A stretch of DNA of 64,000 nucleotides from contig NZ_CP121464.1 of the NCBI RefSeq assembly GCF_029690045.1, positions 4,588,001-4,652,000 on the forward strand, read 5' to 3'. Each line of letters opens with the position of its first letter. Within the stretch, counting starts at the first letter, position 1. Of the stretch, positions 4,647 through 49,396 are shown piece after piece. Below the pieces are notes generated by a model, which was not told the origin of the DNA, ran no database searches, and saw nothing but the letters and a program-made list of their open reading frames with translations. Source of the DNA: Janthinobacterium rivuli (GTDB taxonomy: Bacteria; Pseudomonadota; Gammaproteobacteria; Burkholderiales; Burkholderiaceae_D). The position numbers and the translations under genes are program-made.

Positions 4647-6180
<1,534 letters not shown>

Positions 6181-22844: not shown

Positions 22845-22930
22845 TTCAAGCTGAAGCAGCATGCGCCAGGGAGTTGGCACGGCGCGCAGTCAGCCGAATC
22901 TAGCCATTATTTTTGAAACGCCGTCAATTT

Positions 22931-23422: not shown

Positions 23423-23444
23423 CATGCGGCAGGCAACTGATCGG

Positions 23445-23677
23445 GCAGCCGCTCCTCTTCATGCGTATCGGCATCGACTTGCTTGAACACGGTCGGGAAG
23501 CGCGCGCAAGTCCTGATTTGCTCGAAAGCATGGCACAGCTGGCCAATTGCCGGCACGTCGGCTTCCATGCACGCGTTCGTGTCAAAGCTCAGCGAAAGGG
23601 ACCGGCGTTGAAGGCAAAGGCTGACAATGCCTGACCCTTGAAGGGGGAGGCGCCCAGCACTGCCAGCGACGCGCTGC
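23445..23677 (-). pseudogene. Decayed copy of the hypothetical gene at 45526-46068
   Basis: Read on the minus strand this contains recognisable pieces of the intact gene at 45526-46068: SLAVLGAS-FKGQALSAFAFNA, then a frame break, LSFDT, a deletion, CMEADVPAIGQL, a further deletion, then QIRTCARF and VDADTHEEERL. Relative to the intact gene it has at least two internal deletions and a frameshift. At the DNA level the matching stretches are roughly four-fifths identical by eye. It occupies most of the ~315-bp gap between the hypothetical gene and the PPTase gene. Confidence 0.8.
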
Positions 23678-23737: not shown

Positions 23738-24562
23738 ATGCCCATCTCAATGTATAGAACGGCGACGATGAAGCGTGCAGAAGCGAGCGTTGACATGCAG
23801 TCCGGGCGCTTGCCGGCCAGCGATGAAGCACAGCGGCAAGGGCTGCTTCCCCTGCCCCTGCCATTCATCCACCAGGCAGAGGACGGCATGGCGCCTGCGC
23901 TGCAGATCACCGTCCTGCATTTCCAGCCCTATCCATTCCAGAGCGCCGCCTTCCATGCGCATGACATCGCCCTGCCCGCCGCCATCGCGCGCAGCGTGCC
24001 AAAACGGCAAGCGGAGTATTTTTTCGGCCGGCTGGCAGCGCGCGCCGCGCTGGCGCGCCTCGGCATCGCCGACGCGCAGATCGGCACCGGCGCCTCGCGC
24101 CAGCCCTTGTGGCCAGCCGGCGTGGTCGGCAGCATCAGCCACGGCGGCGGCTATGCCGCTGCGGTGGCCTTGCCGGCGCAGCGGCACGAAGCCATCGGCA
24201 TCGACATTGAAGCGGTGGTCGGCGCGGAGATGCGCGAAGCCTTGCTGAGCACGGCGATCGGCCTGCCCGAGCTTGCCCTGCTGCATCAGCTCAACAGTGT
24301 GAACGCCCTGGAGTTTTTGATGACGGTGGTGTTTTCCGCCAAGGAAAGTTTTTTCAAGGCCGCCTTTCCCACGGTCGGCTACTATTTCGACTTTACCGCC
24401 GTGACACTGACCGCATTCGACGAGGCCAGGCGCACCCTGACGTTTCGGATCAACCAGACGCTGTCGCCGCGCCTGCACGCCAGCGCCCGGTTTTCCGTAG
24501 ATTACGACTTGCTCGATGCGCACACCGTCATCACGCACTGCGGCTGGCGCGGATGGGTGTGA
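23738..24562 (+). CDS. 4'-Phosphopantetheinyl transferase (Sfp/EntD type)
   Basis: Up to 274 residues; starts at 23738, 23768 or 23795 are possible. It transfers phosphopantetheine from CoA to the carrier domains of the PKS-NRPS nearby. Visible motifs are RQAEYFFGRLAARAAL, GSISHGGGYAAAVALP, the Mg-binding AIGIDIEAV and FSAKESFFKAAFPTVG (the WxxKE-type motif). It is of the two-fold pseudodimer group that serves secondary metabolism. It is convergent with the SDR gene (7-bp gap) and marks the left edge of the biosynthetic cluster. Confidence 0.93.
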   Translation: MPISMYRTATMKRAEASVDMQSGRLPASDEAQRQGLLPLPLPFIHQAEDGMAPALQITVLHFQPYPFQSAAFHAHDIALPAAIARSVPKRQAEYFFGRLAARAALARLGIADAQIGTGASRQPLWPAGVVGSISHGGGYAAAVALPAQRHEAIGIDIEAVVGAEMREALLSTAIGLPELALLHQLNSVNALEFLMTVVFSAKESFFKAAFPTVGYYFDFTAVTLTAFDEARRTLTFRINQTLSPRLHASARFSVDYDLLDAHTVITHCGWRGWV

Positions 24563-24569
24563 TTCCTGG

Positions 24570-25292
24570 CTAGGATCCCTGCGACGTGGACGTGACGAAT
24601 ATTTCGCGCATGCACACGCTCTGCGGCAGCTGGTAGGCAAACGCGATGATGCCGGCCACATCTTCCGGAGCCAGCAGGGAGTCGAGCGTGCCCAGCCACT
24701 CCTCGAACATGGCGCGGGCGGACGCCGAGGTCGTGCTGCGCAACAGGGGCGTATCGACCACGCCGGGCGAGACGGTGCTGACGCGGATGTTGTGCTCAGC
24801 CATGTCCAGCCCCAGCGCCGCCGTATAGCCGTGGACGGCAAATTTGGAAGCGCAATAGCCGGCATGCATGGGAAACGCCTGACGGCCGGCAATCGAGCTG
24901 ACATTGAAGACCGTGCCGCGCCGCTGGCGCAGCATGCCTGACAACACACTCTGAACCAGGTTGACGCTGCCGACGACGTTGGTATTGAGCATCTCGGCAA
25001 ACTCCGCCGCGTCCTGCCCGGCGGCCGCGGCCAGCCGCATGATGCCCGCGCTGTTGACCAGGCAGTCGACGGTGCCATGGCGCTGCTCCGCCTGGCGCAC
25101 GGCTTCCTGGACTGCCTGCGCATCGCCCACGTCCAGCGCGGCACAGATGGACTGCGGCAAGTCCAGCGCCTCCAGTGCCGCCTTGCGGCGGCCGATCAGC
25201 AGCAGCGGATGGCCGGCGGCGCTGAACTGCCGCGCCACCGCCGCGCCGATCCCGGAACCGGCGCCGCTCACCACGACGAGCGGGCGGCTCAA
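24570..25292 (-). CDS. Short-chain dehydrogenase/reductase in the biosynthetic cluster
   Basis: 240 residues if a TTG at 25292 is used. That TTG overlaps the stop of the upstream gene as TTGA, a common coupling arrangement. Classical SDR motifs are present: VVVSGAGSGIGAAVARQF (cofactor), NSAGIM, SSIAGRQAFPMHAGYCASK (Ser, Tyr, Lys of the active site) and VSPGVVDTPL. It probably oxidises or reduces a hydroxyl or carbonyl of the cluster product or of a precursor. It is cotranscribed with the TDO-like gene. Confidence 0.88.
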   Translation of the reverse strand: MSRPLVVVSGAGSGIGAAVARQFSAAGHPLLLIGRRKAALEALDLPQSICAALDVGDAQAVQEAVRQAEQRHGTVDCLVNSAGIMRLAAAAGQDAAEFAEMLNTNVVGSVNLVQSVLSGMLRQRRGTVFNVSSIAGRQAFPMHAGYCASKFAVHGYTAALGLDMAEHNIRVSTVSPGVVDTPLLRSTTSASARAMFEEWLGTLDSLLAPEDVAGIIAFAYQLPQSVCMREIFVTSTSQGS

Positions 25293-26866
25293 CTGGCCAT
25301 CCTGGCCGGACGTTTGCGCTGGGCGCGATCCTGCACGTCGGCATACATTTCCTTGACCGCATTGGCGGTGAAATGCGCCATGTATTCGTCGAAGCCGCCT
25401 TTTTGCACGATAGGCAGCGGCGGCACGGGCAGCTTGCCGAGCAGGGCCTGGTACAGCGGGGCAATCGGATCGTTCTTGTGCGCCTGGCGGAAACCGTTGG
25501 CCGTCACCGCGGCGTTCTCGGCGCCCGAAATCGACGCGGTAGGCGTCATGTCCTCGGGGCTGACGCCGATCTGCGTCTTGACGAACTGCATGTGCTCGTC
25601 GCGCCATGTGCGCACGTATTGATGCATATACACCACCTGGCGCAGTATGTCGGCGCGCGGGTCGCCGTGCTGCTGCAGCAACGCCAGCACGATCTGCTGC
25701 AGCCGCTCGTCGTCGCCTGCCAGCTGTTCGTCCATCGCCGCCAGTTGCAGGCGCAGGGCTTTGACCAGCGACGGATAAATCGTCAGGAACAAGCCCTTGC
25801 GCAAGTTGTGCGAATGCGAGCCGCTGGTGATGCCGAGCGCCGGGCGGATGGCGAAATACGCTTTCGGGCTGAGCGTGCGGACGATGGGACGGATGTTGTC
25901 GGTCACCACTTGCAGCAGCTTGCTGCACAGCGCCAGCGAGCGCGCATGCGTGCCGAACGTGGCTTGCTCGTTGCCCAGCAAGGCAACGATGATCTCGCTG
26001 GACACTTCATTGACCAGGCCCACCAGCACTTCGCTGATCTGGTGATAGGCGCGAAATTGCATCAGGCAGGTCGGATCCTTGAGGTCGACGCAGTTGACCG
26101 CTTCGCGCACTTCATCATTTTGAATCAGGCGCTGATAGAACACGCCAGCGTCCTCGCCCGCCTCGCGCCGCACGCCGGGCAGGCGCACCTGCTCCATGGC
26201 GCTGAGCCAGATCGACTCGTAATTGCTGTTGACGAAGCTGTGGAAGAAGACAAAACGCTGCGGATCGTCGAGATCCTTGTCGCCCAGATCGCTGTACTGC
26301 TCGGTGGCCTCGGCCCGCAGGATGGCGTGCATGCGCGCAGCCTGCACCAGATAATCCTGGAAGACGGCCGAATCGCGGATGCTGATGCTGTCGCCCTGCT
26401 GGCCGCCCTGGTCCACCTGCACCAGCAACTGGGACAGGCTGTACAGGGTTTCGTGGAAACGATTGGCCCAGCCGATCTTCAGCGACGCGTCGGCGATGTG
26501 GCCGCGCTTGACGTCGTCCGTGATGCGGCGCGCCAGCACCACCAGATTATTCAGGCAAATCTCGGCGCCACGGAAGATGGCGATGGCCGCGCGGGCCGGC
26601 ACTGCATGGCCGCTATTGTTGATCAGGCGGTCCAGGTACTTAATGCCATGCAATAACTCGTAGTTGGCCAGCACGGCAGTACAGTCGATCTCGCCATTCG
26701 TGGCGAATGCGGCACGGCGATGGCGGATTTCCTCTTCGTCAAAGGACTTGGCCAGCAGCTTGGTGGTGGCGTGTTCCTCGGTGACCGGCAAATTACTTTT
26801 GCTCTGCAAATACGCGCGCACATCGTCCAGAATGGCTTGCGTGGCGGAGACGGTTGGGGTTTCCAT
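25289..26866 (-). CDS. Tryptophan 2,3-dioxygenase-superfamily haem protein
   Basis: 525 residues from the ATG at 26866, which follows GAGGAA. Overall similarity to known proteins is low, but the C-terminal half carries the TDO-superfamily signature. YMHQYVRTWRDEHMQFVKTQ matches the WRxxH...V helix that supplies the haem-ligand His, followed by a Gly-rich turn (IGVSPEDMTPTASISGAENA). ALGITSGSHSHNLRKGLF resembles the SGxQSxxxR substrate loop. The superfamily includes tryptophan and indole dioxygenases, PrnB and aromatic hydroxylases such as SfmD/MarE. Here it is coupled to an SDR in a PKS-NRPS cluster, so oxidation of an aromatic amino acid or an intermediate is inferred. Confidence 0.6.
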   Translation of the reverse strand: METPTVSATQAILDDVRAYLQSKSNLPVTEEHATTKLLAKSFDEEEIRHRRAAFATNGEIDCTAVLANYELLHGIKYLDRLINNSGHAVPARAAIAIFRGAEICLNNLVVLARRITDDVKRGHIADASLKIGWANRFHETLYSLSQLLVQVDQGGQQGDSISIRDSAVFQDYLVQAARMHAILRAEATEQYSDLGDKDLDDPQRFVFFHSFVNSNYESIWLSAMEQVRLPGVRREAGEDAGVFYQRLIQNDEVREAVNCVDLKDPTCLMQFRAYHQISEVLVGLVNEVSSEIIVALLGNEQATFGTHARSLALCSKLLQVVTDNIRPIVRTLSPKAYFAIRPALGITSGSHSHNLRKGLFLTIYPSLVKALRLQLAAMDEQLAGDDERLQQIVLALLQQHGDPRADILRQVVYMHQYVRTWRDEHMQFVKTQIGVSPEDMTPTASISGAENAAVTANGFRQAHKNDPIAPLYQALLGKLPVPPLPIVQKGGFDEYMAHFTANAVKEMYADVQDRAQRKRPARMAS

Positions 26867-26957
26867 TAAATTCCTCATAGGGCGACAAGGTCAGGGCTGC
26901 AGGCAGCAGCCGGCGGGCGAATCGCGGACAAGTATAGAAATCTCTCCCCTGCGCCGA

Positions 26958-26977
26958 AACTGTCATTTCCTCCAGTT
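26958..26977. promoter_or_regulatory. Lux-box-like site upstream of the thioesterase gene
   Basis: AACTGTCATTTCCTCCAGTT has five-base arms AACTG/CAGTT in perfect dyad and ends 65 bp before the thioesterase ATG. A -10-like TGTAGT begins 16 bp after it (26994). It also lies 91 bp upstream of the divergent TDO-like gene, so one site could serve both operons. It resembles the boxes at 42444 and 44750. Confidence 0.7.
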
Positions 26978-27042
26978 ATACGGGGAACCCATCTGTAGTC
27001 CAATGGCCCGCTCCAACCGCCCCTACTACACTGGATCCCCGC

Positions 27043-28260
27043 ATGAGTTCTCCATCTTCACGCGACACCCTGCAACAACTGCGTCAGCACATGGCGCGGC
27101 TGTACGGCCTGCCGGTGCAACTCAGCCTGCTGGCGGCCCTGCTGCACGCCTGCCAGCACATCTACGGACAACGCACGCAAATATTGCTGCACTGGGCGGG
27201 ACTGCCCTTGACGCCGGCCGGCGACGACGCCTCGGCCTGGCTGCGGCAACTGCTCGACGCCTGCGAAGCGCCGGCGGCGGGCAGCGCCCCCGGCCGCCCC
27301 GCGCAGGCATTGACGCTGGCCAGGATCGAAGTGCGCACGCCCCGGCGCAGCGTGATACTGGCGCCGTGCGATCCGATGCCCTCCGACGACTGGAGCATCC
27401 GCGGCGCGCCCGGCGGAGAGGCGCTGCAACAGGCCTGGCAACAGGCCGCCGCCACGCTGGCGCAGACGCTGGAGGCCGAATCGCTGGTCGAACTGTCGCG
27501 CGCGCTGGGCCTGCCGCCAGCCGCCAAGCCGCAGCCGGCGCTGTACCTGGTGCATGGCGCCGACGGCAGCGCGGCGCCCTTCGCCGCCCTTGCCGCCCGC
27601 CTGGATTGCCGCGTGTTCGCGTTCAACCTGCGCCAGGCCGGGCGCCGCCAGCCAAGCATACAGGCCCTGGCGGCGCACTACGTCAGGCGCATGCTGAGCG
27701 GCCCGCCCGCGGCGGCCTACCGTATCGGCGGCCATTCCTTCGGCGCCATCGTCGCTGCCGAAATGGCGACGATATTGCGCAGCGTCGGCAAGCAGGTCGA
27801 CCAGGTGGTGCTGCTGGATCCGTCGCTGGCCATGGCCGCGCGCGACCGCCAGAGCGACGCCGGCAACGAAATGCTGACCCTGTATCTGGCCCTGCATCCC
27901 GAGATGACCGAGCAGCAGGTCACAGGACACATGGATGCCGATGAACTGGCCGCGCGCATCGCGCAGCGCATGCCCAAGGGCCGCATCGACGAAGTGTTAA
28001 GCAACCGCCACGCCTGCCTGGCCCTGCTGCAGCGCTACCGGCCGACGCCGGGCGGCGCCGACGGCGCCAGCTGCCTGCGCCTGCATGCCCGCCAGCCTTT
28101 CATCGCCAGCTGGAACGCGGCGGCCATGGCGCACCGCCAGCCCGGCATCGAAGTACCAGGCAACCATTTTTCCATGCTGGCCGAGCCCCATGCCGGCAGC
28201 CTGGCCCAACTGATACAAACGCACCGAGAATCCAACCATGACCACTCCTTACACTCCTGA
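27043..28260 (+). CDS. Alpha/beta-hydrolase thioesterase (type II TE) of the cluster
   Basis: 405 residues, longer than a usual type II thioesterase (about 250). The C-terminal ~235 residues form the hydrolase: ALYLVHGADGSAAPFAALAA, the nucleophile elbow YRIGGHSFGAIVAAEMA, and the catalytic His in VPGNHFSML. The N-terminal ~150 residues (QLSLLAALLHACQHIYGQRTQ) recall the C-terminal part of condensation domains and may be a remnant or docking region. It probably clears misloaded carrier domains or releases an early intermediate, since the megasynthase itself ends in a reductase. It is the first gene of the plus-strand operon and overlaps the next gene by 23 nt. Confidence 0.85.
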   Translation: MSSPSSRDTLQQLRQHMARLYGLPVQLSLLAALLHACQHIYGQRTQILLHWAGLPLTPAGDDASAWLRQLLDACEAPAAGSAPGRPAQALTLARIEVRTPRRSVILAPCDPMPSDDWSIRGAPGGEALQQAWQQAAATLAQTLEAESLVELSRALGLPPAAKPQPALYLVHGADGSAAPFAALAARLDCRVFAFNLRQAGRRQPSIQALAAHYVRRMLSGPPAAAYRIGGHSFGAIVAAEMATILRSVGKQVDQVVLLDPSLAMAARDRQSDAGNEMLTLYLALHPEMTEQQVTGHMDADELAARIAQRMPKGRIDEVLSNRHACLALLQRYRPTPGGADGASCLRLHARQPFIASWNAAAMAHRQPGIEVPGNHFSMLAEPHAGSLAQLIQTHRESNHDHSLHS

Positions 28261-30094
28261 ATATCCCCATCAGCTGGTCGAGCGCCAGGCCCGCCTGACA
28301 CCCGCGCTGCCAGCCCTGTGCTCGGCCGCCGGCAGCGTGTCGTATGGCGAACTCAATGCACGCGCCAACCGCCTGGCGCGGCTGCTGCAAACGGTGCATC
28401 AGGTGCGGCCGATGGACAGTGTCGCCGTCTGCAGCGCGCATGAGCCAAGCCGTTCGCTGCTGTTGCTGGCGCTGGCCAAGTGCGGCGCCGTGTACGTGCC
28501 CGTGGATATCGAATGCCCCACCGAGCGCCTGCAGCGCATCGCGCAACAGGCCGGCGTGCGTCTGCTGCTGACGGCGCTGAGCGAGCGCCGCATGGCGGCC
28601 GAGACCACGCTGAACGTGCTGCCGTGCGCGCAAGCCGAGCTCGCTGCCCGCGACCTGTCCGACGCCGACATGGCGCCGCTGGTGCCGGTGACGGCGCCGC
28701 TGTACATCATCTTCACCTCCGGCTCGACGGGCCAGCCCAAGGGCGTCGCCGTCTCGCACGCCGCCGCCTACAACCATTTCAGCTGGATCGTGCGCTACCT
28801 GAACGTCACGGCCGGCGACTGCTGGCTGCAAAGCATACATCCGTGCTTCGATCCATCGATGCATGAATTGATGGCGCCGCTGATGGTCGGGGCCCGCATC
28901 GCCTTCCTCGGCGGCGAGCGCAACATCGACGGCGACCGCATCGTCGACGCCATCGAGCGCCACCAGGCGACCCACATGACCACGGTGCCCACCATGCTCA
29001 CCCTGATCCTGCAAACGCCGGGCGTGGAGCGCTGCACCTCGATGCGCGCGATGTGCGTCGGCGGCGAGGTCTTCCGGCCGGCGCTGGCGGCACGCGCCAG
29101 CGCGCTGCTGCCGGCGGCCGGCATCTACAACGTCTACGGTCCCACGGAAGCGACCATCATGGCCAGCGCCTGGCGCTACGACGGCCAGCCCGCCGATTCG
29201 CTGCCGATAGGCGAGCCGGTGCCGCACACGCGCTTTTACCTGCGCGACGGGGAAGGCCGGGTGCATCGGCTCAGTCCCTTCCTCGAAGGCGAGCTGTGTA
29301 TCAGTGGCGCCGCGCTGGCCAACGGCTATGTCAACGATGCGGCCGAAACGGCGCGCAAATTCATCGCCAATCCGCTGCCGGAGCCGGAAGCGCCGCTGCT
29401 GTACCAGCGCCTCTACCTGACCGGCGACGTCTGCCGCGTCGACGCCGACGGCGAGCTGCACTGCATCGGCCGCGTCGATGACCAGGTCAAGGTCAACGGC
29501 CAGCGCGTCGAACTGGCGGAAATCGAGGCCACGCTGCTCGATTCCGGCCTGCTGGACGACGTCACCGCCCTGCTGGCGGGCACACGCCTGGTCGCGGCGC
29601 TGGTGCCTGGCGCGGGCGCCGACGACGACGCCCGCTGGCTCGAGCGCCTTGCCGCCCACGCCGCCCGCGCCCTGCCGCCCGCCTGGTTGCCCAGGCAATA
29701 CCTCCCGCTACGCGAAATCCCGCGCCAGGCACTGAGCGGCAAGGCGGACCGCAAAGCCTTGCAGGCAATGTTCGCCAGCGACAACGTGGCGGCGCCCCTG
29801 CCGCACGCCGCGCGCGACACCGCGCAGGCGGGCGCCTGCATAGAGCGGCTGGCGGCGGCCCTGGCCGACACCCTGGGCATGCCTGGCGCCGCGCTGGAGC
29901 ACGACCTGCCGTTTGCCGAACTGGGACTCGATTCGCTCGGCGTGCAAGTGTATGCGCTGCGCGTGAGCACGGACTTCGGCGTGCGCCTGCGTGCCGAGGA
30001 GCTGTTTGAATTCTTCACGCTGGAACTGCTGGCGCAAGCCATCGCCGCGCGGCAGGACAGCAGCGCCGCCTCCCTGGCCCACGCCGGGGCATAA
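28238..30094 (+). CDS. Stand-alone NRPS adenylation-thiolation protein
   Basis: 618 residues: an A domain (about 10-520) and a T domain (about 535-610). The core motifs are IIFTSGSTGQPKGVAVSH (A3), NVYGPTEATIM (A5), YLTGDVCRVDADGELHCIGR (A7-A8) and the catalytic lysine in LSGKADRKAL (A10). The carrier serine is in LGLDSLGVQVY. The A4 region reads FDPSMHE rather than FDxSxWE; by-eye alignment gives a pocket beginning Asp-Pro-His, which I cannot match to a known substrate. It probably activates a starter or an amino acid to be oxidised on the carrier before passing to the megasynthase. Confidence 0.92.
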   Translation: MTTPYTPEYPHQLVERQARLTPALPALCSAAGSVSYGELNARANRLARLLQTVHQVRPMDSVAVCSAHEPSRSLLLLALAKCGAVYVPVDIECPTERLQRIAQQAGVRLLLTALSERRMAAETTLNVLPCAQAELAARDLSDADMAPLVPVTAPLYIIFTSGSTGQPKGVAVSHAAAYNHFSWIVRYLNVTAGDCWLQSIHPCFDPSMHELMAPLMVGARIAFLGGERNIDGDRIVDAIERHQATHMTTVPTMLTLILQTPGVERCTSMRAMCVGGEVFRPALAARASALLPAAGIYNVYGPTEATIMASAWRYDGQPADSLPIGEPVPHTRFYLRDGEGRVHRLSPFLEGELCISGAALANGYVNDAAETARKFIANPLPEPEAPLLYQRLYLTGDVCRVDADGELHCIGRVDDQVKVNGQRVELAEIEATLLDSGLLDDVTALLAGTRLVAALVPGAGADDDARWLERLAAHAARALPPAWLPRQYLPLREIPRQALSGKADRKALQAMFASDNVAAPLPHAARDTAQAGACIERLAAALADTLGMPGAALEHDLPFAELGLDSLGVQVYALRVSTDFGVRLRAEELFEFFTLELLAQAIAARQDSSAASLAHAGA

Positions 30095-30102
30095 GGATGA
30101 GC

Positions 30103-37600: not shown

Positions 37601-40600
37601 GCGCGCTACAGCGGCCAGCAGCGCGTGCTCACCGGCGTGGCGTTCAACGGCCGCACCCAGCAACGCTGGCGCCACACGGTCGGCCACTTCGTCAACGTGC
37701 TGCCGCTGGTGCTCGACATCGACGAAAACGGCAACAGCACGGCGCTGGAACGCAGCGTGTCGGGCGCCCTGTTCGACCTGCTCGAGTTCCAGGATATTCC
37801 GCTGGCCCAGCTGATGCGCGACGAACGGCTGAAGGCGGCCGTGCAGGGCCACGATCCCCTGCAAAGCTATTTCAACTTCTTCGACGCCACGGAAATGCAT
37901 CTGGAGGCAGGCGCCGCCAGACTGACGCCGCTGACGATCCCGCAACAGCTGGCGCAGTTCGACCTGAGTCTCTGGATCACGCAATACCAGGGGCATTGGG
38001 ACATGCTGCTGAAGTTCCGCTGCAGCGCCTTCAGCCAGCCCGCCATGGCGCGCATGGCGGCGCACTATGCGGCGCTGCTGGCGCAGCTGGCGGCCGGCAG
38101 CGACGACGCCGTGGCGCACCTGTCCATGCTGTCGGCCGCCGAGCAGCACTGCCTGCTGGGCGGCCAGGGCCCAGGCACGGCGCCGCTCGCCGCCGCCACG
38201 CCGGCCGGTGCGCGGGCATTGCCGGTATACCAGCAATTCCTGCTGCAGGCCGAACGCCATCCCTCGGCCGTGGCGCTGGAATGGGACGCGCATAGCCTCA
38301 GCTATGCGCAATTGCGGCACCATGTCCAGCAACTGGCCTCGCAACTGGCGGCGCTGGGCATCGGCAAGGAGCACACGGTCGGCCTGATGATGCCGCGCGC
38401 GGCCTGCCCGGAATCGGTGATCGCGATTCTGGCGCTGTGGCAATGCGGTGCCGCCTATGTCGCACTGGACCTGCAGCATCCGCCGCAACGCTCGCTGTAC
38501 ATGCTGCAGACGGCGCGCTGCGCCTTGCTGCTGACGGCTGGCGAACGCCCCGGCACGGAGATGCAGGCGCTGCTGCGGGCGCAGGCGCAACTGGGCGTGC
38601 TGGAAATCGTCCTCGGGCAAGCGCTGTCGGTGCAGGTGCGGCAGGCGGTCGTGGTGCCGCCGGCCGAGCGGCTGGAGCCGAACAGCCCGTATGCGGACGG
38701 CGGCGGCGACCTGGCGTATGTGCTGTACACCTCCGGCAGTACCGGCATGCCCAAGGGCGTGCTGGTCGAGCATGCGGGCCTGAGCGAGCGCCTGGCGTGG
38801 ATGGCGGAATATTTCAGCTTTGGCCCCGGCGACAAGTTCCTGCAAGGCACGGTGCTGACGTTCGACATTTCCGTCCCGGAATACTGCCTGCCGCTGATCT
38901 GCGGCGGCACCGTGGTGCTGCTGCCGCATGGCGCCGCTGGCAGCGCGCACGTGGCCGCCTGCCAGGCGCACGGCGTGACGATGATGAGCACCGTACCGTC
39001 GCTGCTCAACCTGCTGGTCACCGAGCTGGCCGCCTGCCACAGCCTGCGCCACGTCATCTCCGTGGGTGAGGCGCTGATGCGGCCCGTGGTGGAACAATGG
39101 CTGGCCTCGGGCACGGCAACGGTGCTGCACAACCTGTATGGCCCGACCGAAGCCACCATCTACGCCACCTTCCATGCCTGCCGCGCCTTACCGCACGGCA
39201 GCGGCGCACTCATCGGCAAACCCTGCCCCGGTGTCAATTGCTGGGTGCTGGACAAGCTGGGACGGCCGGTACCGGCTGGCGTGGCAGGTGAACTGTACCT
39301 GGGCGACAGCGGCGTCGCGCGCGGCTACATCGGCACGGTGCGCCAGCCCGATCCGTTCTACGGCAATCCGCAGCAGACGCCGCAGCGGCGCATCTACCGC
39401 ACGGGCGACATCGTCAGATGGACCGCCGAGGGCGAACTGGACTACATCGGCCGCAATGATTTCCGCGTCAAGCTGCGCGGCCAGCTGATCGAACTGGGCG
39501 AGATCGAGCACGCGCTGCTGGCGCAGCCCGGCGTCCAGCATGCGTGCGCGCTGGTGATGGAAATCGGTCAGCCCGGTGCGACGACACGCCAGATCATGGC
39601 GGCCGTGATCGCCCGCACGCAAGCCGATGCTGCGCTGCTGCAACGGCTGCGCCAGCGGCTGCCCGAGTACATGCTGCCATCGCAGCTGTTCCAGTTCGAC
39701 GCCTTCCCGCTCAACAGCAGCGGCAAGGTCGACCGCGCGGCACTGAGCGCCCTGTTGACGCAGCGGCTGGCACAGCAGCGCGAGCAGCGCCTGCCCGCCA
39801 CGGCGGCGGCCCTGACGCCGCTGCAGCAGCGCATCTGTGCGCTGTGGCAGGAATTGCTGCAAGTGCCAGTGGTGGATGTCGACGAGAACTTTTTCCAGCT
39901 GGGCGGCGATTCGCTGGTGCTCACGCGCATGGTGCTGGCCGTGGAACGCACGCTGGGACTGCGCATCCAGTTCGGCCGTTTCGTCAGCAATCCCACCATC
40001 AACGGCTTGCTGGCGGCCGATGCGGCCGAGGGCACGGCACCGCCCCGGCGCGCCTACGAGGCCGACCTGGAACGCATGGGCGATCTGCCGCCGTTCCCCG
40101 CTGGCGCCACGCCAGGCAAGGCCGTGATGCTGACCGGCGCCAGCGGCCACCTCGGCATGCATCTGCTGCACGCGCTGCTGAACGAAAGTTCGGCCAGCAT
40201 CGTCCTGCCGCTGCGTGGCGACGACGGCATGGCACGCCTGGCGGCCCGCTATCGCCGCCTGTTCCATGCGGACTTGCCGTCGCAACGGCTGAGCGTGCTG
40301 CAGGCCGACCTGGCCTTGCCGTCGCTGGGCATGTCGGCCGCCGATTATGCTGCCTGCCGCGCCAGCGTCGGCCAGGTGATCCACGCGGCGGCGCACGTGA
40401 ATCACGCCGCCGACTATGGCTCCATGCGCGACGGCAACGTGGGCGCCACCCGCAATGTGCTGCTGTTCGCGGCGCAGGCCGGCGCCGCGCACGTGCATCA
40501 TATGTCGACCCAGTTCACCGAGCTGGCCGACTTGCCGGAAGCGCCGCTGGCCGCCTCCAGCCTGGAAGCAATCGCTTCCGGCTACGAGCAGTCCAAGCTG

Positions 40601-41164
40601 GCGGCCGAGCTGCAAGTGACGCAGGCGATGGCACTGGGCTATCCGGCCACGGTGTACCGCCTGCCCCTGATGTTCGACGACAGCGACACGCGCCTGTACA
40701 CGCAAAACCACTTTGTCGCGCTGGCCGTCAAATGCCTGCAGATGGACGCCTATCCGGATCTGCCGATGCCCGTCACGCTGCTGCCCACGGCGCTGGTGGC
40801 CAGTTACGTGGCAAGGCGCAGCAAGTTGTGCACGGCGCCGGGGGTACGCAACCTCAGCCTCGGGCCCTTGGCGTTCGACACGCTCGCCGCAGCCCTGCGC
40901 CCCACGCTGCAGGCCACGCCTGCCGCGCGCTGGGTCGAGCGCAGCAGGCAGGAGACGGCGGAAGACGATCCCTTCTTCCGCCTGCTGCCGCTGTATGCCG
41001 ACCTGGGCGAGCCGCAGCCCGCGCAGGCGGCGTCGCGGCAGGTGGCCAATGACGAGTTCCTGCGCGAACTGGCGCAACTCGAACTGCGCGAGGTACGCGA
41101 CGCCGCCACGCTGCACAACTTTGCCGTCAGCAGCCTGCGCCGCCTGGCCCAGGCAACCGATTAA
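31601..41164 (+). CDS. Hybrid PKS-NRPS megasynthase KS-AT-DH-KR-ACP-C-A-T-R
   Basis: 3187 residues. KS (about 1-430): Cys175 in DTACSSSL, His310 in ETHGTGT, His347. AT (about 525-840): Ser620 in GHSVGEYAA and AFH at His728, the malonyl-CoA pattern. DH (about 920-1190): His936 in HVIDGAAVLP, Asp1103. KR (about 1400-1600): GVFGGIG, Ser1541, Tyr1554 and an LDD motif (B-type). ACP: Ser1686. C (about 1745-2170): NHVLMDA in place of HHxxxDG, with the second His1881 and Asp1885 kept. A (about 2190-2715): YTSGSTGMPKG, Lys2709. T: Ser2771. Terminal reductase (from about 2840): TGASGHLG, Tyr2995 and Lys2999, so release is reductive. It adds one malonyl unit as an enoyl extension, then one amino acid. 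There is no ER or methyltransferase. Confidence 0.96.
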   Translation: MNATNLPSPSDIAIVGMACELPGQADTLAGFEHVLMHGIDATSALPAERFDSATRDGLAAAARHGGYLQRSPWMFDAGCFGIAPKEAAYMDPQHRLLLECAYHALEDAGLDPAALRGNPCGVFVGVSTSDFGRRMAASGDYNGYLSRGALGSMAAGRLSYHFGLEGPSLVVDTACSSSLVALHQAISALREGRCGMAIVAGVSLILAHDYSADLAAAGMLAADGRCKPFTRHADGFSRGEGVGAIVLLPAADAAARGMRAYAHVLGSAINSDGRSNGITAPSKSAQRRLMEQALHSAGLTPAQVSHIETHGTGTALGDRIELDALGEVFGRRDTPLFLGAAKANIAHCEGAAGIAGIIKMALSLHRRRIAPHCFAHDIDAAVASALPQAVLPAQALAWPGDSRRIGGVSSFGMSGSNAHVLLGEAADAPLAGPEVAAGGPQLLQLSARSTGALQALAQGYAGWLAQPDAPAAAAVCHAALFQRQQWNQARLSVAGNNASELAAQLLRRLDTPLRPRPASARVALVFTGQGSQYTNMARQLYQQNTLFRSLLEPLAARLDHLAGEDTHILDALFAGDAGLRQPSGRERQRSAQLSLFLIEYALAEFWRALGLRPVAVLGHSVGEYAAACVAGVMDFDVAVRMLLARADAMEAACAASDSAMLAVAATPQQLAPLLARICADEPALWIAVRNSAQSVVVAGRATALAQLSQAAADAGLVCTPLATRGAFHTPLMAPAAAQFAAACAAIAPALRAPAAAVRFYSSVDSDDTAALEQGVDQLRYWSEQIQTPVNFADAIARLLADGPDLVLEIGPRAVLTPLTASAARLAGRAIVCLPSLDMRHDDVPTVLRALGSLSEHGALDPRQAMRQFAVQTERPVPAGLPLYPFQREHVQPASWQTSLPALGSAAMVPVPPVAALAIRHELSLDPQAGDSWLQQHVIDGAAVLPGMYYLSSAFSLAQRWLPQAADAAAQQLTLRDLLIHQPLALAADAPAALTVDIGGPDTRQSYQLRYSAPGHARALHAEVRAGWNAMPQPDNADAPGAAAQWDDAAPFYDHYRARGVSYGPLFQRVQASHRVSDSELWGRILPPEAPTASLPLWHAALLDNCLHTLGICAGDPQQAYVPVSVGSAWFDASAAWNASILCQAVLRPAPAGFLDGELRLYSGQGRCIGVLSEVSCAALGAAAMPAALPLHAVDWVAYTAPAGLPARPAAGEQWLLAAAANSSLPAACVQWLAEADVHTRHAQWDADGKLHGAESATAPLRTILVLLDPAHPQPADAAALAHWVRNWRETLQVLLDRQPGQPLQLCLADVAAHADGEAAHTRRALAQGLATNLRSELPALDVSWLDSDADGAAIAAAACAVRAQPAGLADGGIAASLWRLRAGILAQRRTLRVAQPTAPDQPCCRAEGTYWISGVFGGIGRHLAEHLVRHAGCRSLVLVTRAAPTEEQQAWLAQLATQGVALQLLLADLNDTASASAALEACGAPMHGLFHLAGSLDDRPIGDIDAAQLQQVLGAKLGGAWLLHRHAARHAELDYFVLFSSLAALLESPGQLAYTAANAGLQLLAAQRRHDGLPATVIDWGPWDGAGMMRGLAQGKRSRALRQLAPMAPARGCATLAALLAGPERDGHYAVYALAPAAAAGQEQPCASAGANADGDLLAQLIASETGHAASTLDEQATLEQLGLDSVGLIRIRSELQSQLGHSIPVALLLAGGTLAELRQRLAGLQPAAAAQAPETVPDAGPATPRIPLSPGQFSLWYEQQRQDAGNAYQCAIGWRIDGTGLDMAALQARWEALIAAHELLRATVDGDDQETGPAYVVHAPATVQAANAIRQQPVQDEAAALAHIADMLAMAPSLHDSFATRVTLLRAHDGTGYLVLSSNHVLMDASAMFYVGQQLAGALCGLAPADSPGPVAQYRDFAASQRQLGADAVARAADHIAPQLLAQDDSLLRLDLPYERTPAPSAAGDSVAIPLSAEAMQRLRALPASRRASVCLAAWLLLLARYSGQQRVLTGVAFNGRTQQRWRHTVGHFVNVLPLVLDIDENGNSTALERSVSGALFDLLEFQDIPLAQLMRDERLKAAVQGHDPLQSYFNFFDATEMHLEAGAARLTPLTIPQQLAQFDLSLWITQYQGHWDMLLKFRCSAFSQPAMARMAAHYAALLAQLAAGSDDAVAHLSMLSAAEQHCLLGGQGPGTAPLAAATPAGARALPVYQQFLLQAERHPSAVALEWDAHSLSYAQLRHHVQQLASQLAALGIGKEHTVGLMMPRAACPESVIAILALWQCGAAYVALDLQHPPQRSLYMLQTARCALLLTAGERPGTEMQALLRAQAQLGVLEIVLGQALSVQVRQAVVVPPAERLEPNSPYADGGGDLAYVLYTSGSTGMPKGVLVEHAGLSERLAWMAEYFSFGPGDKFLQGTVLTFDISVPEYCLPLICGGTVVLLPHGAAGSAHVAACQAHGVTMMSTVPSLLNLLVTELAACHSLRHVISVGEALMRPVVEQWLASGTATVLHNLYGPTEATIYATFHACRALPHGSGALIGKPCPGVNCWVLDKLGRPVPAGVAGELYLGDSGVARGYIGTVRQPDPFYGNPQQTPQRRIYRTGDIVRWTAEGELDYIGRNDFRVKLRGQLIELGEIEHALLAQPGVQHACALVMEIGQPGATTRQIMAAVIARTQADAALLQRLRQRLPEYMLPSQLFQFDAFPLNSSGKVDRAALSALLTQRLAQQREQRLPATAAALTPLQQRICALWQELLQVPVVDVDENFFQLGGDSLVLTRMVLAVERTLGLRIQFGRFVSNPTINGLLAADAAEGTAPPRRAYEADLERMGDLPPFPAGATPGKAVMLTGASGHLGMHLLHALLNESSASIVLPLRGDDGMARLAARYRRLFHADLPSQRLSVLQADLALPSLGMSAADYAACRASVGQVIHAAAHVNHAADYGSMRDGNVGATRNVLLFAAQAGAAHVHHMSTQFTELADLPEAPLAASSLEAIASGYEQSKLAAELQVTQAMALGYPATVYRLPLMFDDSDTRLYTQNHFVALAVKCLQMDAYPDLPMPVTLLPTALVASYVARRSKLCTAPGVRNLSLGPLAFDTLAAALRPTLQATPAARWVERSRQETAEDDPFFRLLPLYADLGEPQPAQAASRQVANDEFLRELAQLELREVRDAATLHNFAVSSLRRLAQATD

Positions 41165-41173
41165 CGCCTTGCC

Positions 41174-41206
41174 GGCCGGGGTGCAGCCGCGCCCCGGCCC
41201 ATTTTT
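41174..41206 (+). terminator. Intrinsic terminator between megasynthase and exporter
   Basis: GGCCGGGG (41174-41181) pairs perfectly with CCCCGGCC (41192-41199) over a 10-base loop, followed by CATTTTT. It starts about 10 bp after the megasynthase stop and lies wholly within the 51-bp gap before the MFS gene, so some transcripts should end here and exporter levels may be lower. Confidence 0.75.
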
Positions 41207-41215
41207 GATGAGTTC

Positions 41216-42433
41216 ATGATGAAATCCAGACTGGTTTATCTCGCCCTGTTCAGTACCATTTTCGCCGATGCCGCCGGCATCGGCATCGTCTATCCGACCC
41301 TGACCCCGCTGCTGCTGGGCGATGCGTCGCCGCTGTTCGACGCCAGCCAGGGGCCGGCCTTCCGCTCGGCCGTCTACGGCCTGCTGCTGGCCATCTATCC
41401 GCTGATGATGTGCCTCGGCTCGCCCTGGCTGGGCGCCCTGTCGGACCGCAAGGGCCGCAAGCCCGTACTTCTGCTGTGCTTGCTCGGCAATGCCGGCGGC
41501 ATGGCGCTGACCGCCTTTGGCGTCTGGCAAGGCAGCCTGGTACTGATCTGCTGCGGCCGGGCGCTGGCCGGCATCACGGCCGCCAGCCTGCCGGTGGCGC
41601 AAGCGGCCATCATCGACCTGAGCACGACCGACAGCAAGGCCGCCAACCTCGCGCTGGTGACGGCCGCCAACGGCATCGGCTTCGTTGCCGGGCCGCTGCT
41701 GGGCGGCATCATGCACCAGCAGGGCGCGGCGCTGTGGCTGCCCTATCTCTGGGCGGCGCTGCTGCCGCTGGCCAGCGCCGTGCTTGTCCTGCTGTGCTAC
41801 ACGGATACCCGCGCTTTGTCGACCGACAACACCCATCCGTGGCGCAATCTGTGGCAGATGCTGTGCCGTCCCGAGCTGCGCCATCCCTTGCTGCTGCTGG
41901 CCATCTTTCTACTCGGCTACTACATGTATTTCAACTACATGGCCGCGTTTGCGCTGCTGCATTACAGCTTTGACGCCTGGCAGGAAGCCCAGCTGCTGGC
42001 GTATTATTCCACCTGCTTTGCCCTTGCCATGCTGTTTATCGTGCCCTGGGCCACCCGCCGCTTTGCGCTGGAGCGCATCCTGCCCATCAGCCTGTCCATC
42101 CAGCCGCCGCTGGTCGCTGCCGTGGCCCTGGGCGATGCGCCTGCCGTGCTATGGCTGCTGACCGGCCCGCTGGCGATCGCCGTCGCCACGACCTATGTCT
42201 GTCTGCTCAGCATTGCTTCCAACCGCACGCTGACGGAGCGCCAGGGACAACTGATGGGCTTGATCTCTTCGATCAATGCCCTGGCCTGGGGTGTCGCGCC
42301 GCTGATCACGGCGGCCCTGCAGCCCCTGTCGACCTTGCTACCGATCATGGTGGCGGCGCTGGTCTTGCTCGCTGGCGTGGCGTGCATGCTGCTCGCGCGC
42401 CAGCGCCAGCTGCAAGCGGGCGGCGCCAAGTGA
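41216..42433 (+). CDS. MFS drug/metabolite exporter (TCR/Tet-like)
   Basis: 405 residues with about 12 hydrophobic helices. The family motif in loop 2-3 is visible as GSPWLGALSDRKGRKPVLL. Motif C-like FVAGPLLGGIMHQQG near residue 160 marks the drug:H+ antiporter group. It resembles TetA/BcR-type exporters. Placed directly after the megasynthase, it most likely exports the product and gives self-protection. Start codons at 41216 and 41219 are both possible. Confidence 0.9.
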   Translation: MMKSRLVYLALFSTIFADAAGIGIVYPTLTPLLLGDASPLFDASQGPAFRSAVYGLLLAIYPLMMCLGSPWLGALSDRKGRKPVLLLCLLGNAGGMALTAFGVWQGSLVLICCGRALAGITAASLPVAQAAIIDLSTTDSKAANLALVTAANGIGFVAGPLLGGIMHQQGAALWLPYLWAALLPLASAVLVLLCYTDTRALSTDNTHPWRNLWQMLCRPELRHPLLLLAIFLLGYYMYFNYMAAFALLHYSFDAWQEAQLLAYYSTCFALAMLFIVPWATRRFALERILPISLSIQPPLVAAVALGDAPAVLWLLTGPLAIAVATTYVCLLSIASNRTLTERQGQLMGLISSINALAWGVAPLITAALQPLSTLLPIMVAALVLLAGVACMLLARQRQLQAGGAK

Positions 42434-42443
42434 ACGGCGCGCC

Positions 42444-42463
42444 ACCTGTCATTTCCTACAGGG
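42444..42463. promoter_or_regulatory. Lux-box-like site upstream of the FabF-like gene
   Basis: ACCTGTCATTTCCTACAGGG has CCTGT/ACAGG arms in dyad and ends 65 bp before the ATG at 42529, the same distance as the site at 26958. A -10-like TGATAC lies about 19 bp after it. Ten bases (CTGTCATTTC) are identical with the 26958 site. Confidence 0.75.
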
Positions 42464-42528
42464 GTGGCGGGCCAGGGATTGCTGATACATTGCGGCTTTG
42501 TCCGAATTAACCTGCTGAAAGGACTGCG

Positions 42529-43845
42529 ATGTCTTCGTCCCCCTACGTCCTCCCCCATCCACTCGGCCTGCGCCGCGTGGTCGTTACAGGCATCGGCATG
42601 CTGACCCCGCTGGCGGTGGGCGCCGAGCGCACCTGGCAACGGCTGCTGGCCGGCCACAGCGGCATCGGCGTGCTGGACCGCTTTCCCGCCGCCCACCTGC
42701 CGGCGCGCATCGCGGGTCAGTTGCCGGCGGCCGGGGAAGAAGGCGGTTTTCGGCCCGAGGACTGGGTCGAACGCAAGGAACTGAAGAAAATGGATCCGTT
42801 CATCGTCTACGCCATCGCCGCAGCCACCGAAGCGCTGCGCGATGCCGGCTGGGCCCCGGCCGAGCTGGCGGAACAGGAACGCAGCGGCGTCATGATCGGT
42901 TCCGGCATCGGCGGCCTGCCCGGCATCGAAGGCGCGGCCAGGGCGCTGGAAAATGGCAGCCAGCGGCGCCTGTCGCCATTTTTCATCCCGTCCAACCTGA
43001 TCAACCTGGCAACTGGACACATCGCCATCCAGCACCATCTGCGCGGCCCGGCGCACGCCACCGTCACCGCCTGCGCCTCGGGCGCGCACGCCATCGGCGA
43101 TGCGGCGCGCATGATTGCGCTCGACGATGCCGATGTTATGGTTGCCGGCGGCACCGAAGGCACGATCTGCGAGCTCGGCGTGGCAGGTTTTTGCGCCGCC
43201 CGCGCCCTCTCCACGGCGTTCAACGATGCGCCCGAGCGCGCCTCCCGGCCCTGGGACCGTGACCGCGACGGCTTCGTGATGGGCGAAGGCAGCGGCGTCA
43301 TGGTGCTGGAAGAGTACGAACACGCGCGTGCGCGCGGCGCGCGGATATACGCCGAAGTGATCGGCTATGGCATGTCGGGCGACGCCTACCATGCCGTGGC
43401 GCCGCCGGAAGACGGCAACGGCGCGGCCCGCGCCATGCAGGCGGCGTTGCGGCGCGCCCGCCTGGCGCCCGAGTCCATCGATTACATCAATGCGCACGCG
43501 ACGTCGACCCCCGCCGGCGACCTGGCGGAAATCGCCGCCTTGCGGCACGTGTTCGGCGCCCATCTGCACGGCGGCGTCTCGGTATCCTCGACCAAGTCGG
43601 CCATGGGCCACCTGCTGGGCGCTTCCGGCAGCGTGGAAGCCATCCTGTCGGTGCTGGCCTTGCGCGACCAGATCGTGCCGCCCACCTTGAATCTGGACAA
43701 CCGCGCCGCCGAATGCGAAGGCATCGATCTGGTGGCCGGCAAGGCATACGCCAGGCCGATCCGCCATGTACTGTCGAATTCGTTCGGTTTTGGCGGCACC
43801 AATGCCGCGCTGATTTTTGCCGCGCCGCCGGATGCCGCCCCTTGA
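42529..43845 (+). CDS. FabF-type beta-ketoacyl-ACP synthase in the cluster
   Basis: 438 residues, the size of KAS II, preceded by AAAGGA. It starts RRVVVTGIGMLTPLAVGAERTW. The catalytic residues are Cys in VTACASGAHAIGDA, His in INAHATSTPAGDLAE, and Lys/His in SSTKSAMGHLLGASG; all are intact. It joins malonyl-ACP to an acyl primer. As a separate gene inside a PKS-NRPS cluster it could build a dedicated acyl starter, or it could be a resistant replacement for the cell's own FabF. It has its own lux-box-like promoter and is convergent with luxR (12-bp gap). Confidence 0.9.
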   Translation: MSSSPYVLPHPLGLRRVVVTGIGMLTPLAVGAERTWQRLLAGHSGIGVLDRFPAAHLPARIAGQLPAAGEEGGFRPEDWVERKELKKMDPFIVYAIAAATEALRDAGWAPAELAEQERSGVMIGSGIGGLPGIEGAARALENGSQRRLSPFFIPSNLINLATGHIAIQHHLRGPAHATVTACASGAHAIGDAARMIALDDADVMVAGGTEGTICELGVAGFCAARALSTAFNDAPERASRPWDRDRDGFVMGEGSGVMVLEEYEHARARGARIYAEVIGYGMSGDAYHAVAPPEDGNGAARAMQAALRRARLAPESIDYINAHATSTPAGDLAEIAALRHVFGAHLHGGVSVSSTKSAMGHLLGASGSVEAILSVLALRDQIVPPTLNLDNRAAECEGIDLVAGKAYARPIRHVLSNSFGFGGTNAALIFAAPPDAAP

Positions 43846-43857
43846 AGCCAGCGTCAG

Positions 43858-44604
43858 TTACAGCAGGCGCAAGGCCATCGCCTTGATGACGGCGGCCGTC
43901 TTGTTGACGGTATCGAGCTTCTGCAGGGAGTTGCTGATGTGAAAGGTCACGGTGCGTTCGGTAATGTTCAGGATCTCGCTGATGTCGGCCGAGGTCTTGC
44001 CATCGGCGCACCAGCGCAGCACTTCCGCCTCGCGCTCGGTCAGCTGGATTTTGGGCGCATCCTTGGCCGGCACGGCGATGGCGTCGGCAAAATGTTCATG
44101 CACGACATTGGCAAGCCAGGCCACGCGCAAGGAGAGCACGTCGATTTCCCGCTCCGTCAAGGGTTTGCAGGAGCGGGAAAAACTCAGCAGGCCAACCTGG
44201 CCGCTCATGTCGCAGGACGATTGCCCCCAGCCGTAGCGCAAGCCGTGGGCGTGGGCGTCCTCCCAGAACTCGCGATTCTCGTCCAGCATTTCGCCGCCCC
44301 ACAGGATGGGCAGCAAGGAGCGGTTGGCGCGGCTGACCGTCGGGTCGGAACGCATGTACGACTGCTCGGAATAACGGCGCTGCCACGAACTCGGGTAATT
44401 ATTCACCGTAAACACCTTGGGCCTGGACATCGGCAGACGGCCTTGCAGGCCATAGGCGCAATAATCGAACCCCAGGTCGCCGGCCACACCCACCAGCACT
44501 TCGAATATGTCATCCGGCGTGCGGGTAGCAGCCAGATTTTCGATCACACCTTGTTTCCATTCTGCTGCCGGAAGACGCGTTTTTGGGGCGTTGTAAGCGA
44601 ACAT
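43858..44604 (-). CDS. luxR: LuxR-family AHL-responsive transcriptional regulator
   Basis: 248 residues, preceded by AAGGA. The autoinducer-binding domain (about 20-170) has FDYCAYGLQG, and the ligand-contact pattern is in NYPSSWQRRYSEQSYMRSDP (Trp, Tyr and Asp-Pro) followed by LLPILW. The C-terminal LuxR helix-turn-helix (about 182-245) reads LTEREAEVLRWCADGKTSAD and ITERTVTFHISNSLQKLDTV. It should bind an acyl-homoserine lactone and act at the lux-box-like sites in this cluster. It is divergent from luxI. Confidence 0.93.
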   Translation of the reverse strand: MFAYNAPKTRLPAAEWKQGVIENLAATRTPDDIFEVLVGVAGDLGFDYCAYGLQGRLPMSRPKVFTVNNYPSSWQRRYSEQSYMRSDPTVSRANRSLLPILWGGEMLDENREFWEDAHAHGLRYGWGQSSCDMSGQVGLLSFSRSCKPLTEREIDVLSLRVAWLANVVHEHFADAIAVPAKDAPKIQLTEREAEVLRWCADGKTSADISEILNITERTVTFHISNSLQKLDTVNKTAAVIKAMALRLL

Positions 44605-44749
44605 AGAAGTCCTTAGTCAGGGGGGAGAATTTGCCGCGGACTCATCGCGCATGATAAAAAGGCACGTCGGCAAGTCGGCGTATGGTATAGCAAAGTCTGC
44701 TTCAAATTCTCACCAAAACGCACTGCCAGCAACATAAATCAGCCCCGCT

Positions 44750-44769
44750 ACCTGTGGTTCCCTACAGTT
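44750..44769. promoter_or_regulatory. Lux-box-like site upstream of luxI
   Basis: ACCTGTGGTTCCCTACAGTT has CTGT/ACAG arms in dyad (4 bp core plus the outer A-T pair). It ends 55 bp before the luxI ATG, with -10-like TACACT beginning 16 bp after it (44786). This matches the classic position for LuxR activation and implies positive feedback on signal synthesis. Confidence 0.8.
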
Positions 44770-44824
44770 TTGTATCGGCCGCAATTACACTGTAATAGCC
44801 ATCCCGTCACAGCCGTCAATAATC

Positions 44825-45460
44825 ATGAAACTCCTTTCAGCCAAATCCGATACGCTTTGCAGTATTTTGAAGTCCGAATTGGAGCACTACCGCTACAAAG
44901 TGTTTGTGGAAACCCTGGGATGGGATTTGCCATCGCAGGATGGCAGGGAGACGGACCAGTTCGACCATGACGATACCTACTATGTCATCGCGCGCGATGG
45001 CGAGGGGCGCATCAACGGCTGCGCCCGGCTCTTGCCCACCGATCGCCAATATTTACTGGGGGAAATATTTCCCCAGCTAATGGCCGGCCAGGCACCGCCG
45101 CGCCATCACGAGATCTGGGAATTGTCCCGCTTCACGTCGATGGATCTGCACGACAACCGCAATACCCTGGAAGACACCTTCCGCCTGCTGCGCAAGGCCA
45201 TCGCCACGGCGGCGACCTTGGGCGCGCGCCGGATTATTTCCGTCTCCCCCGTCGGCATCGAGCGCCTGCTGCGGCAAGGCGGCTTTTCGACGGAGCGCGC
45301 CGGGCCGCCGATGCGCGTGAACGGCCACCTGCTGTACGCGTGCTGGATCGATGTGCCGGCCCAGCTCGAGCCGATCAGCGCACTGCCGGCGCGCCTGTGG
45401 CGCATGCTCGGCGTGCGCGGCACGGCAGCGCTGCGGGGACAAATCGCCGGCGCCGCTTAG
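44825..45460 (+). CDS. luxI: Acyl-homoserine-lactone synthase
   Basis: 211 residues of the LuxI/LasI family. The conserved N-terminal residues are in order: YRYKVFVETLGWDLP (Arg, Phe, Trp), DQFDHDDTYYVIARD (Asp), RINGCARLLPTDRQYLLGEI (Arg) and HEIWELSRFTSM (Glu, Arg). It makes an AHL from S-adenosylmethionine and acyl-ACP; the acyl chain cannot be predicted. It is paired divergently with luxR and closes the biosynthetic cluster on the right. Confidence 0.95.
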   Translation: MKLLSAKSDTLCSILKSELEHYRYKVFVETLGWDLPSQDGRETDQFDHDDTYYVIARDGEGRINGCARLLPTDRQYLLGEIFPQLMAGQAPPRHHEIWELSRFTSMDLHDNRNTLEDTFRLLRKAIATAATLGARRIISVSPVGIERLLRQGGFSTERAGPPMRVNGHLLYACWIDVPAQLEPISALPARLWRMLGVRGTAALRGQIAGAA

Positions 45461-46068: not shown

Positions 46069-46109
46069 GGGGGCCTGTCGAAAATAATAGCGGTGGATAG
46101 TGCGAGGAA

Positions 46110-47774: not shown

Positions 47775-47801
47775 TGTGTCCTCCATCGCTGCGGCATTGC
47801 G

Positions 47802-49394: not shown

Positions 49395-49396
49395 GA

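Follow-up and report, generated by a model that had tools for sequence, protein, structure and literature searches.

A gene cluster encoding a hybrid of polyketide synthase (PKS) and nonribosomal peptide synthetase (NRPS), together with quorum-sensing genes, was characterized in Janthinobacterium rivuli. The stretch analysed, hereafter the window, comprises 64,000 nucleotides (bases 4588001-4652000 of a single 6.33-Mb contig), and all coordinates refer to it unless another locus is named. Open reading frames and family searches assigned eleven genes to a block of ~22 kb at 23738-45460. An original prediction, made from the letters alone, had described this block as a self-contained, quorum-linked PKS-NRPS cluster with an unfamiliar enzyme set; all the genes it named were recovered there from open frames and Pfam/NCBIfam searches. 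The gene that it likened to tryptophan 2,3-dioxygenase (TDO) is present, with the refinement that it lies on the minus strand with a short-chain dehydrogenase/reductase (SDR) gene, divergent from the block that runs from thioesterase (TE) to ketosynthase (KS). The genes and lux-box-like sites are as follows.

23738-24562, plus strand: phosphopantetheinyl transferase (PPTase), Sfp/EntD type (PF17837, PF01648)
24570-25298, minus strand: SDR, after the haem protein gene (PF00106)
25289-26866 or 26878 (two possible starts), minus strand: TDO-fold haem protein, HDAO superfamily
26960-26975, plus strand: lux-box-like site in the divergent TDO-like/TE promoter, CTGTCATTTCCTCCAG
27043-28260, plus strand: stand-alone TE with an N-terminal extension of ~160 aa (PF00975)
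28238-30094, plus strand: adenylation-thiolation (A-T) protein, code DPHTCGVIMK (PF00501, PF00550)
30097-31614, plus strand: L-amino-acid-oxidase-like flavoprotein, with W315 for the flavin-side lysine (PF01593)
31601-41164, plus strand: PKS-NRPS megasynthase, 3187 aa (Pfam, motifs)
41216-42433, plus strand: predicted major facilitator superfamily (MFS) exporter (PF07690)
42446-42461, plus strand: lux-box-like site ahead of the FabF-like gene, CTGTCATTTCCTACAG
42529-43845, plus strand: FabF-like KS (TIGR03150, Cys-His-His)
43858-44604, minus strand: LuxR-type acyl-homoserine lactone (AHL) receptor (PF03472, PF00196)
44752-44767, plus strand: lux-box-like site upstream of luxI, CTGTGGTTCCCTACAG
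44825-45460, plus strand: LuxI-type AHL synthase (PF00765)

The megasynthase carries, in one frame and with catalytic motifs, the series KS-AT-DH-KR-ACP followed by C-A-T-R, the arrangement of a PKS-NRPS hybrid with reductive release. A frameshift in this gene, which the original prediction had named as grounds for its own rejection, was not found in the window, where the gene is a single open frame. Its domains, all on the plus strand and assigned by Pfam and motifs unless stated, are these.

31631-33115: KS, catalytic Cys and both His
33173-34144: acyltransferase (AT), GHSVGE and AFH motifs
34385-35149: dehydratase (DH), HxxxGxxxxP and DxxxH
35822-36352: ketoreductase (KR), YxxxN
36563-36760 (ends approximate): acyl carrier protein (ACP), LGLDSVG at residue 1682
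36839-38155: condensation (C), NHxxxDA
38246-39727: adenylation (A), code DIPSIVLIYK
39827-40015: thiolation (T), Pfam only
40124-41047: thioester reductase (R), TGASGHLG and GYEQSK (PF07993, TIGR01746, motifs)

From its GHSVGE and AFH motifs, the AT domain is presumably of the malonyl type. The intact KR, DH and R domains fit a putative product that is an unsaturated amide with an aldehyde, alcohol or cyclic imine end. The C-A-T-R order is shared with MxcG (myxochelin), a reductively terminated NRPS, and there is a partial match to NF038078; the megasynthase differs in that a reducing PKS module precedes this part, and it scores 421 of 2300 bits, far under the family cut-off.

An alignment-based scan of a species-representative collection found haem-protein loci in five further genomes: J. 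violaceinigrum FT13W, Rugamonas sp. CCM 8940, Burkholderia arboris, Burkholderia sp. BCC0506 and Mycetohabitans endofungorum. The SDR, haem protein, TE, A-T protein, oxidase, megasynthase, MFS protein and FabF-like KS genes stand in the same order in all of these except Mycetohabitans (the J. violaceinigrum cluster is split across two contigs). The code of the fused A domain is the same in five of five copies compared, and the catalytic residues of the KS, AT, DH, KR, ACP, C, T and R domains are retained in the two Burkholderia orthologues, which are ~48% identical, with some motif neighbours changed in both (the LDD of KR, for example, is absent). Against the J. violaceinigrum copy, dN/dS (NG86) was 0.042-0.284 for ten pieces of nine genes, namely the haem protein, TE, A-T protein, oxidase, megasynthase (two pieces), MFS protein, KS, LuxR and LuxI, with SDR and PPTase left out; among these the strongest constraint was on the FabF-like KS (0.042), followed by the haem protein (0.049). 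The one-frame megasynthase, the catalytic residues kept in orthologues and the low dN/dS together indicate a cluster that is neither a chance assembly nor decayed. That the genes are chance neighbours and form no single pathway is highly improbable: PPTase and luxI were indeed not seen at some orthologous loci, but eight genes keep their order in Rugamonas and two Burkholderia, and the ends of the insertion described below coincide with those of the gene set. In the Rugamonas assembly (locus L014) the megasynthase has a frame break at ~5182-5233, between its PKS and C regions.

The periphery of the cluster varies. Among the loci compared, a PPTase orthologue occurs only at that of J. violaceinigrum (L004), and LuxI was likewise seen only there among the orthologous loci. 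The LuxR proteins of J. violaceinigrum and Rugamonas are orthologues of the one in the window, and the Burkholderia clusters are followed by a distant LuxR (34-35%). The oxidase had some match in 81 of 392 family genomes, with at least 81% identity in only three.

The window contains the following flanking repeats, found by self-comparison and, for the first, also from empty sites.

23433-23676: left flank, repeating a segment of the gene at 45526-46068 in degenerate, incomplete form
45555-45985: right flank, counterpart of the left repeat, within open frame 45526-46068

Ten of the eleven other left-flank TetR loci were aligned as an empty-site test (L052 was left out), all from Janthinobacterium genomes without an oxidase orthologue. 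In nine of them no more than 0.3 kb separates the end of the TetR gene, with or without window bases 22928-23534, from 45554-46118, and no part of the cluster intervenes; at L045 this junction was not shown. The insert thus spans from just before PPTase to just after LuxI, near the coordinates first proposed, and the claim of a self-contained cluster is borne out by these island ends and empty sites. No integrase is encoded among the eleven assigned genes, and the block is a genomic island by its empty site in relatives and not one with its own integrase; it would have integrated via a homologous flank. GC content is 0.65-0.73 across 24-44 kb, 0.55-0.58 at 46-50 kb and 0.61-0.67 in the rest of the window. 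In J. violaceinigrum the cluster occupies the same place with a different left junction (22161, then 23852 after 158 bases), and among matches over 150 bases there was no counterpart of the window's left repeat. A 54-base fragment of the TetR gene, 21874-21927, recurs at 46130-46183 (94% identical). Beside the island, 46110-54251 encodes VgrG (51477-54251), a PLD-domain protein (49397-51451) and two Sel1/DUF6396 proteins, a type-VI-secretion-like block that is missing at this place in J. violaceinigrum (46118 is followed by 54340).

The lux-box-like sites end 67 bases ahead of the TE start codon, 67 ahead of that of the FabF-like gene and 57 ahead of that of luxI. The one at 26960-26975 is, in addition, separated from the divergent haem protein gene by 81 or 93 bases, depending on which start that gene uses. 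Pattern CTGTNNNTTYCNHCAG had two matches in the genome, both in the cluster, as compared with a mean of 0.01 in the shuffled window, and CCTGTNNNTTCCTACAG, with at most one mismatch, had three, two of them in the cluster. The plain dyad CTGT-N8-ACAG was weaker, its two window matches being equalled in 11 of 100 shuffles, and a simple dyad scan recovered none of the three sites. Two Burkholderia stretches (19-20 kb) each have a single such dyad, in the same divergent promoter (count equalled in 18/200 and 15/200 shuffles). No protein of the genome other than LuxI matches PF00765, and luxI orthologues of at least 90% occur in only 2 of 40 genus genomes. The presence of both proteins, with lux-box-like sites at candidate target promoters, fits a LuxR/LuxI circuit; the quorum link first suggested thus finds support in the sites at three promoters and in a rarely shared luxI.

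Several observations count against this circuit. The patterns were derived from the sites themselves, by comparing promoters by eye, and then counted, so that the genome count indicates a near-private pattern and not a function. The reversed control of CTGTNNNTTYCNHCAG also has one genome match, and at two mismatches CCTGTNNNTTCCTACAG gave 26 matches as compared with 15 for its reversed control. The adjoining 13-kb Burkholderia stretches (end of the MFS gene, KS, LuxR) have no such dyad, and at the Rugamonas locus no luxI was found in the ~1 kb before the contig ends. That locus (13105-14234 of L014) retains luxR and a lux-box-like site at 13267-13282. The Rugamonas cluster may be controlled by a distant or foreign signal. 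In two other Janthinobacterium (L057 and L058) a LuxI relative (54-56%) with one stop within the matched frame is located away from the TetR locus.

In the parts available of two earlier papers (PMC12618000; PMC5080296), luxI/luxR is reported in some Janthinobacterium and no such cluster is described. The corresponding part of a survey of luxR-linked proteobacterial clusters (PMC5872303), which makes no mention of Janthinobacterium, gives PKS-NRPS hybrids as 11% of those listed; they share with the present cluster a cluster-encoded LuxR, and this gene set is not named in that part.

The A-T code is identical in all five cluster copies compared and, more widely, DPHTCGVIMK was found in 21 of 23 A-T homologues (E <= 1e-100, window record included), the lowest being ~42% identical. 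The other two are P0061 (Crossiella equi) and P0064, which pairs by contig with P0088, the sole oxidase lacking both W315 and R65. Pairing used equally long contigs as a proxy for the same contig, with 27 of 42 haem, 23 of 23 A-T and 23 of 33 oxidase records entered; comparison of the remaining haem and oxidase records by eye gave no further pairs. By this measure seven A-T records pair with an oxidase record, and a haem record is present on one of the seven; of the other six, four carry the identical A-T code, on contigs that at 22-31 kb are perhaps incomplete. As identical-code contigs occur without a listed haem homologue, A-T protein and oxidase look like a wider unit to which the haem protein would be an addition. 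The pair ranges over Burkholderiales, the actinomycete Crossiella equi (flavoprotein P0073, A-T protein P0061) and metagenome contigs, and Legionella has at least the flavoprotein (P0077, L. micdadei). Among 369 class genomes, searches with the A-T motif (no further pairs) and with the Legionella oxidase (E <= 1e-30) each returned only the genome itself (1/369), and no plasmid-borne oxidase was found at 1e-40.

The term 'flavin amine oxidase' held in so far as the protein matches PF01593; it is more exactly a homologue of L-amino-acid oxidases in which the usual flavin lysine is missing. The FAD fold is present, as is R65, which we take to be the arginine that in L-amino-acid oxidases binds the free carboxylate. 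At the position of the flavin-side catalytic Lys, the site mutated in 8zf8 (K304A) and 7eii (K387A), the protein has W315, and among the closer rows Trp is found in 22 of 23 and Leu in the remaining one. Homologue sets comprised 32 of 33 oxidase records (A3; P0099 dropped), 12 of 33 (A2) and 33 of 42 haem records (A1, which omits the window's own record, fragments and near-duplicates). The flavoprotein thus differs from L-methionine oxidase (8zb2/8zf8) and related bacterial L-amino-acid oxidases in its Trp, and also in adjoining an A-T gene; among open PMC papers, none turned up for the entries 8ZB2/8ZF8. VioA, the L-tryptophan oxidase of violacein synthesis, belongs to a different pathway (82 bits against a cut-off of 600).

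The Asp of an adenylation code normally binds the alpha-amine. The flavoprotein could be an ordinary free L-amino-acid oxidase that supplies an imino or keto acid, maybe a cyclic imine, for loading on the A-T protein; we regard this as unlikely though credible, since the A-T code retains this Asp and the flavin-side Lys has been replaced. Oxidation on the carrier and oxidation of the free substrate are about evenly balanced. The retention of R65 tells against the first, as it favours a free over a carrier-bound substrate. Two further points count against the mechanism proposed below: neither adenylation code matched a known amino acid, and no docking-domain evidence backs a hand-over from A-T protein to KS. 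Solved A domains closest to those of the cluster (linear gramicidin synthase etc.) were uninformative as to substrate.

The haem protein scores a weak 28.7 bits with TIGR03036, well short of the TDO cut-off of 390.7. Its TDO-type helical fold and predicted haem-ligating His place it in the HDAO superfamily. TDO active-site residues are retained (Thr and Ser of two loops by our own placement), and fold, axial His and substrate-binding residues are shared with TDO and MarE (HDAO). Unlike these, the protein has 529 aa with >200 extra N-terminal residues. No internal repeat was detected in it. Loop 1, placed by eye at 446-451, reads PTASIS instead of the GTGGS of TDO or the SLGGR of MarE, and loop 2 reads ITSG as compared with PASG or DATG, the comparison being with the loops given in the part available of PMC11904535. 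Against the link to TDO stand its weak values by sequence (profile E 0.02-0.03, single-sequence E 0.96) and a best Foldseek E of 0.0017, also weak. Of 399 order genomes, two have a haem homologue at E <= 0.001, one of them as a weak match over 89 residues. In four other genomes an SDR orthologue (62-91%) adjoins the gene for the haem protein. The family has a further branch, P0032-P0042 (32-37% identical), in which all ten aligned members retain the lid Tyr and axial His as well as FRAYHQ; 7 of the 11 are named tryptophan 2,3-dioxygenase at source. On the Mycetohabitans endofungorum megaplasmid NZ_CP062179.1 (L018, L019), a 49% identical haem protein is encoded just upstream of an 11,376-aa NRPS, whose 34-kb gene differs from the cluster megasynthase. 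Two of its seven A domains have a like, aromatic-looking code (DLWSIAAAC-), and none of the seven codes equals either cluster code.

In quinaldic-acid pathways deamination yields a quinolone-type starter. By analogy, the A-T protein could receive kynurenine or formylkynurenine made by the haem enzyme, which the oxidase would deaminate to such a starter. The retained TDO residues suit this, as does the fact that five genomes, counting that of the window, have the haem enzyme and oxidase genes close to that of the A-T protein, but the haem record on only one of seven A-T/oxidase contigs makes it improbable. Because contigs without a listed haem homologue carry an identical A-T code, the haem-derived unit would instead enter at the second module or in tailoring. 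The absence of the haem record from those contigs, taken from a homology list of limited sensitivity, tempers this placing.

The FabF-like KS scores 591 bits with TIGR03150 (cut-off 494) and has an intact Cys-His-His triad, as expected of FabF (KAS II). In four cluster-bearing relatives the cluster copy is 72-97% identical and the next-best copy 50-53%; in Mycetohabitans, which lacks a cluster KS, the best copy is 53%, and the 50-53% copies, distinct from the cluster KS, are presumed to be housekeeping FabF. Such a KS, with its own lux-box-like site, may protect host fatty-acid synthesis. A biosynthetic role, as starter or trans-extension KS, falls just short of an even chance: the triad is intact, and the gene is syntenic and the most constrained piece tested, but the protein scores as FabF, its gene has a lux-box-like site of its own, and the block has no gap big enough for a free ACP gene. 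For the MFS protein the nearest NCBIfam models are Tet-type, with scores far under their cut-offs; it would export the product.

Gene content, catalytic motifs, conserved synteny and adenylation codes, empty sites and lux-box-like sites are observations on the sequence; as to mechanism, we propose the following. One amino acid would be tethered by the A-T protein and oxidised, on the carrier or free, by the oxidase-derived flavoprotein encoded next to it. The KS would accept this unit in trans and add one malonyl unit, KR and DH would convert the chain to an alpha,beta-unsaturated acyl form, and the C-A-T module would couple a second amino acid before the R domain released an aldehyde (or alcohol), which might then cyclise to an imine. 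Together with the SDR, the TDO-fold haem enzyme would oxidise tryptophan or a close relative; were its product kynurenine at the last module, the released aldehyde could reach the aniline to form a seven-membered imine. In the part available of PMC9598734, 1-benzazepines derived from kynurenine are described as rare natural products.

The assembly-line order and its control are well supported, and the product of the cluster is probably a small molecule not yet described, made with an unusual pair of starter enzymes. For the whole, an intact biosynthetic island that arrived by horizontal transfer, is activated at high cell density by its own LuxR/LuxI pair and works as proposed, we incline slightly to acceptance. 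A bolder version is doubtful: that A-T protein and flavoprotein are a new two-protein starter module, in which the Lys-to-Trp oxidase desaturates or oxidises a carrier-held amino acid to an imino- or dehydroaminoacyl PKS starter, and that the TDO-fold enzyme supplies a kynurenine-type second unit on whose aniline the aldehyde may close to a benzazepine imine. A full-text search of open PMC papers, partly on single parts, found no characterised cluster with the same gene set; the gene combination therefore still appears unfamiliar, within searches not all aimed at the whole set.

The pathway is compact and intact and has an on-switch of its own, which makes discovery of its product directly testable. 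The recurring A-T code and the Lys-to-Trp change mark a starter-unit family that is recognisable from sequence and could be assayed with two small proteins, and the haem enzyme offers a third loop type for the question of what decides whether enzymes of the TDO fold insert a single oxygen atom or two.
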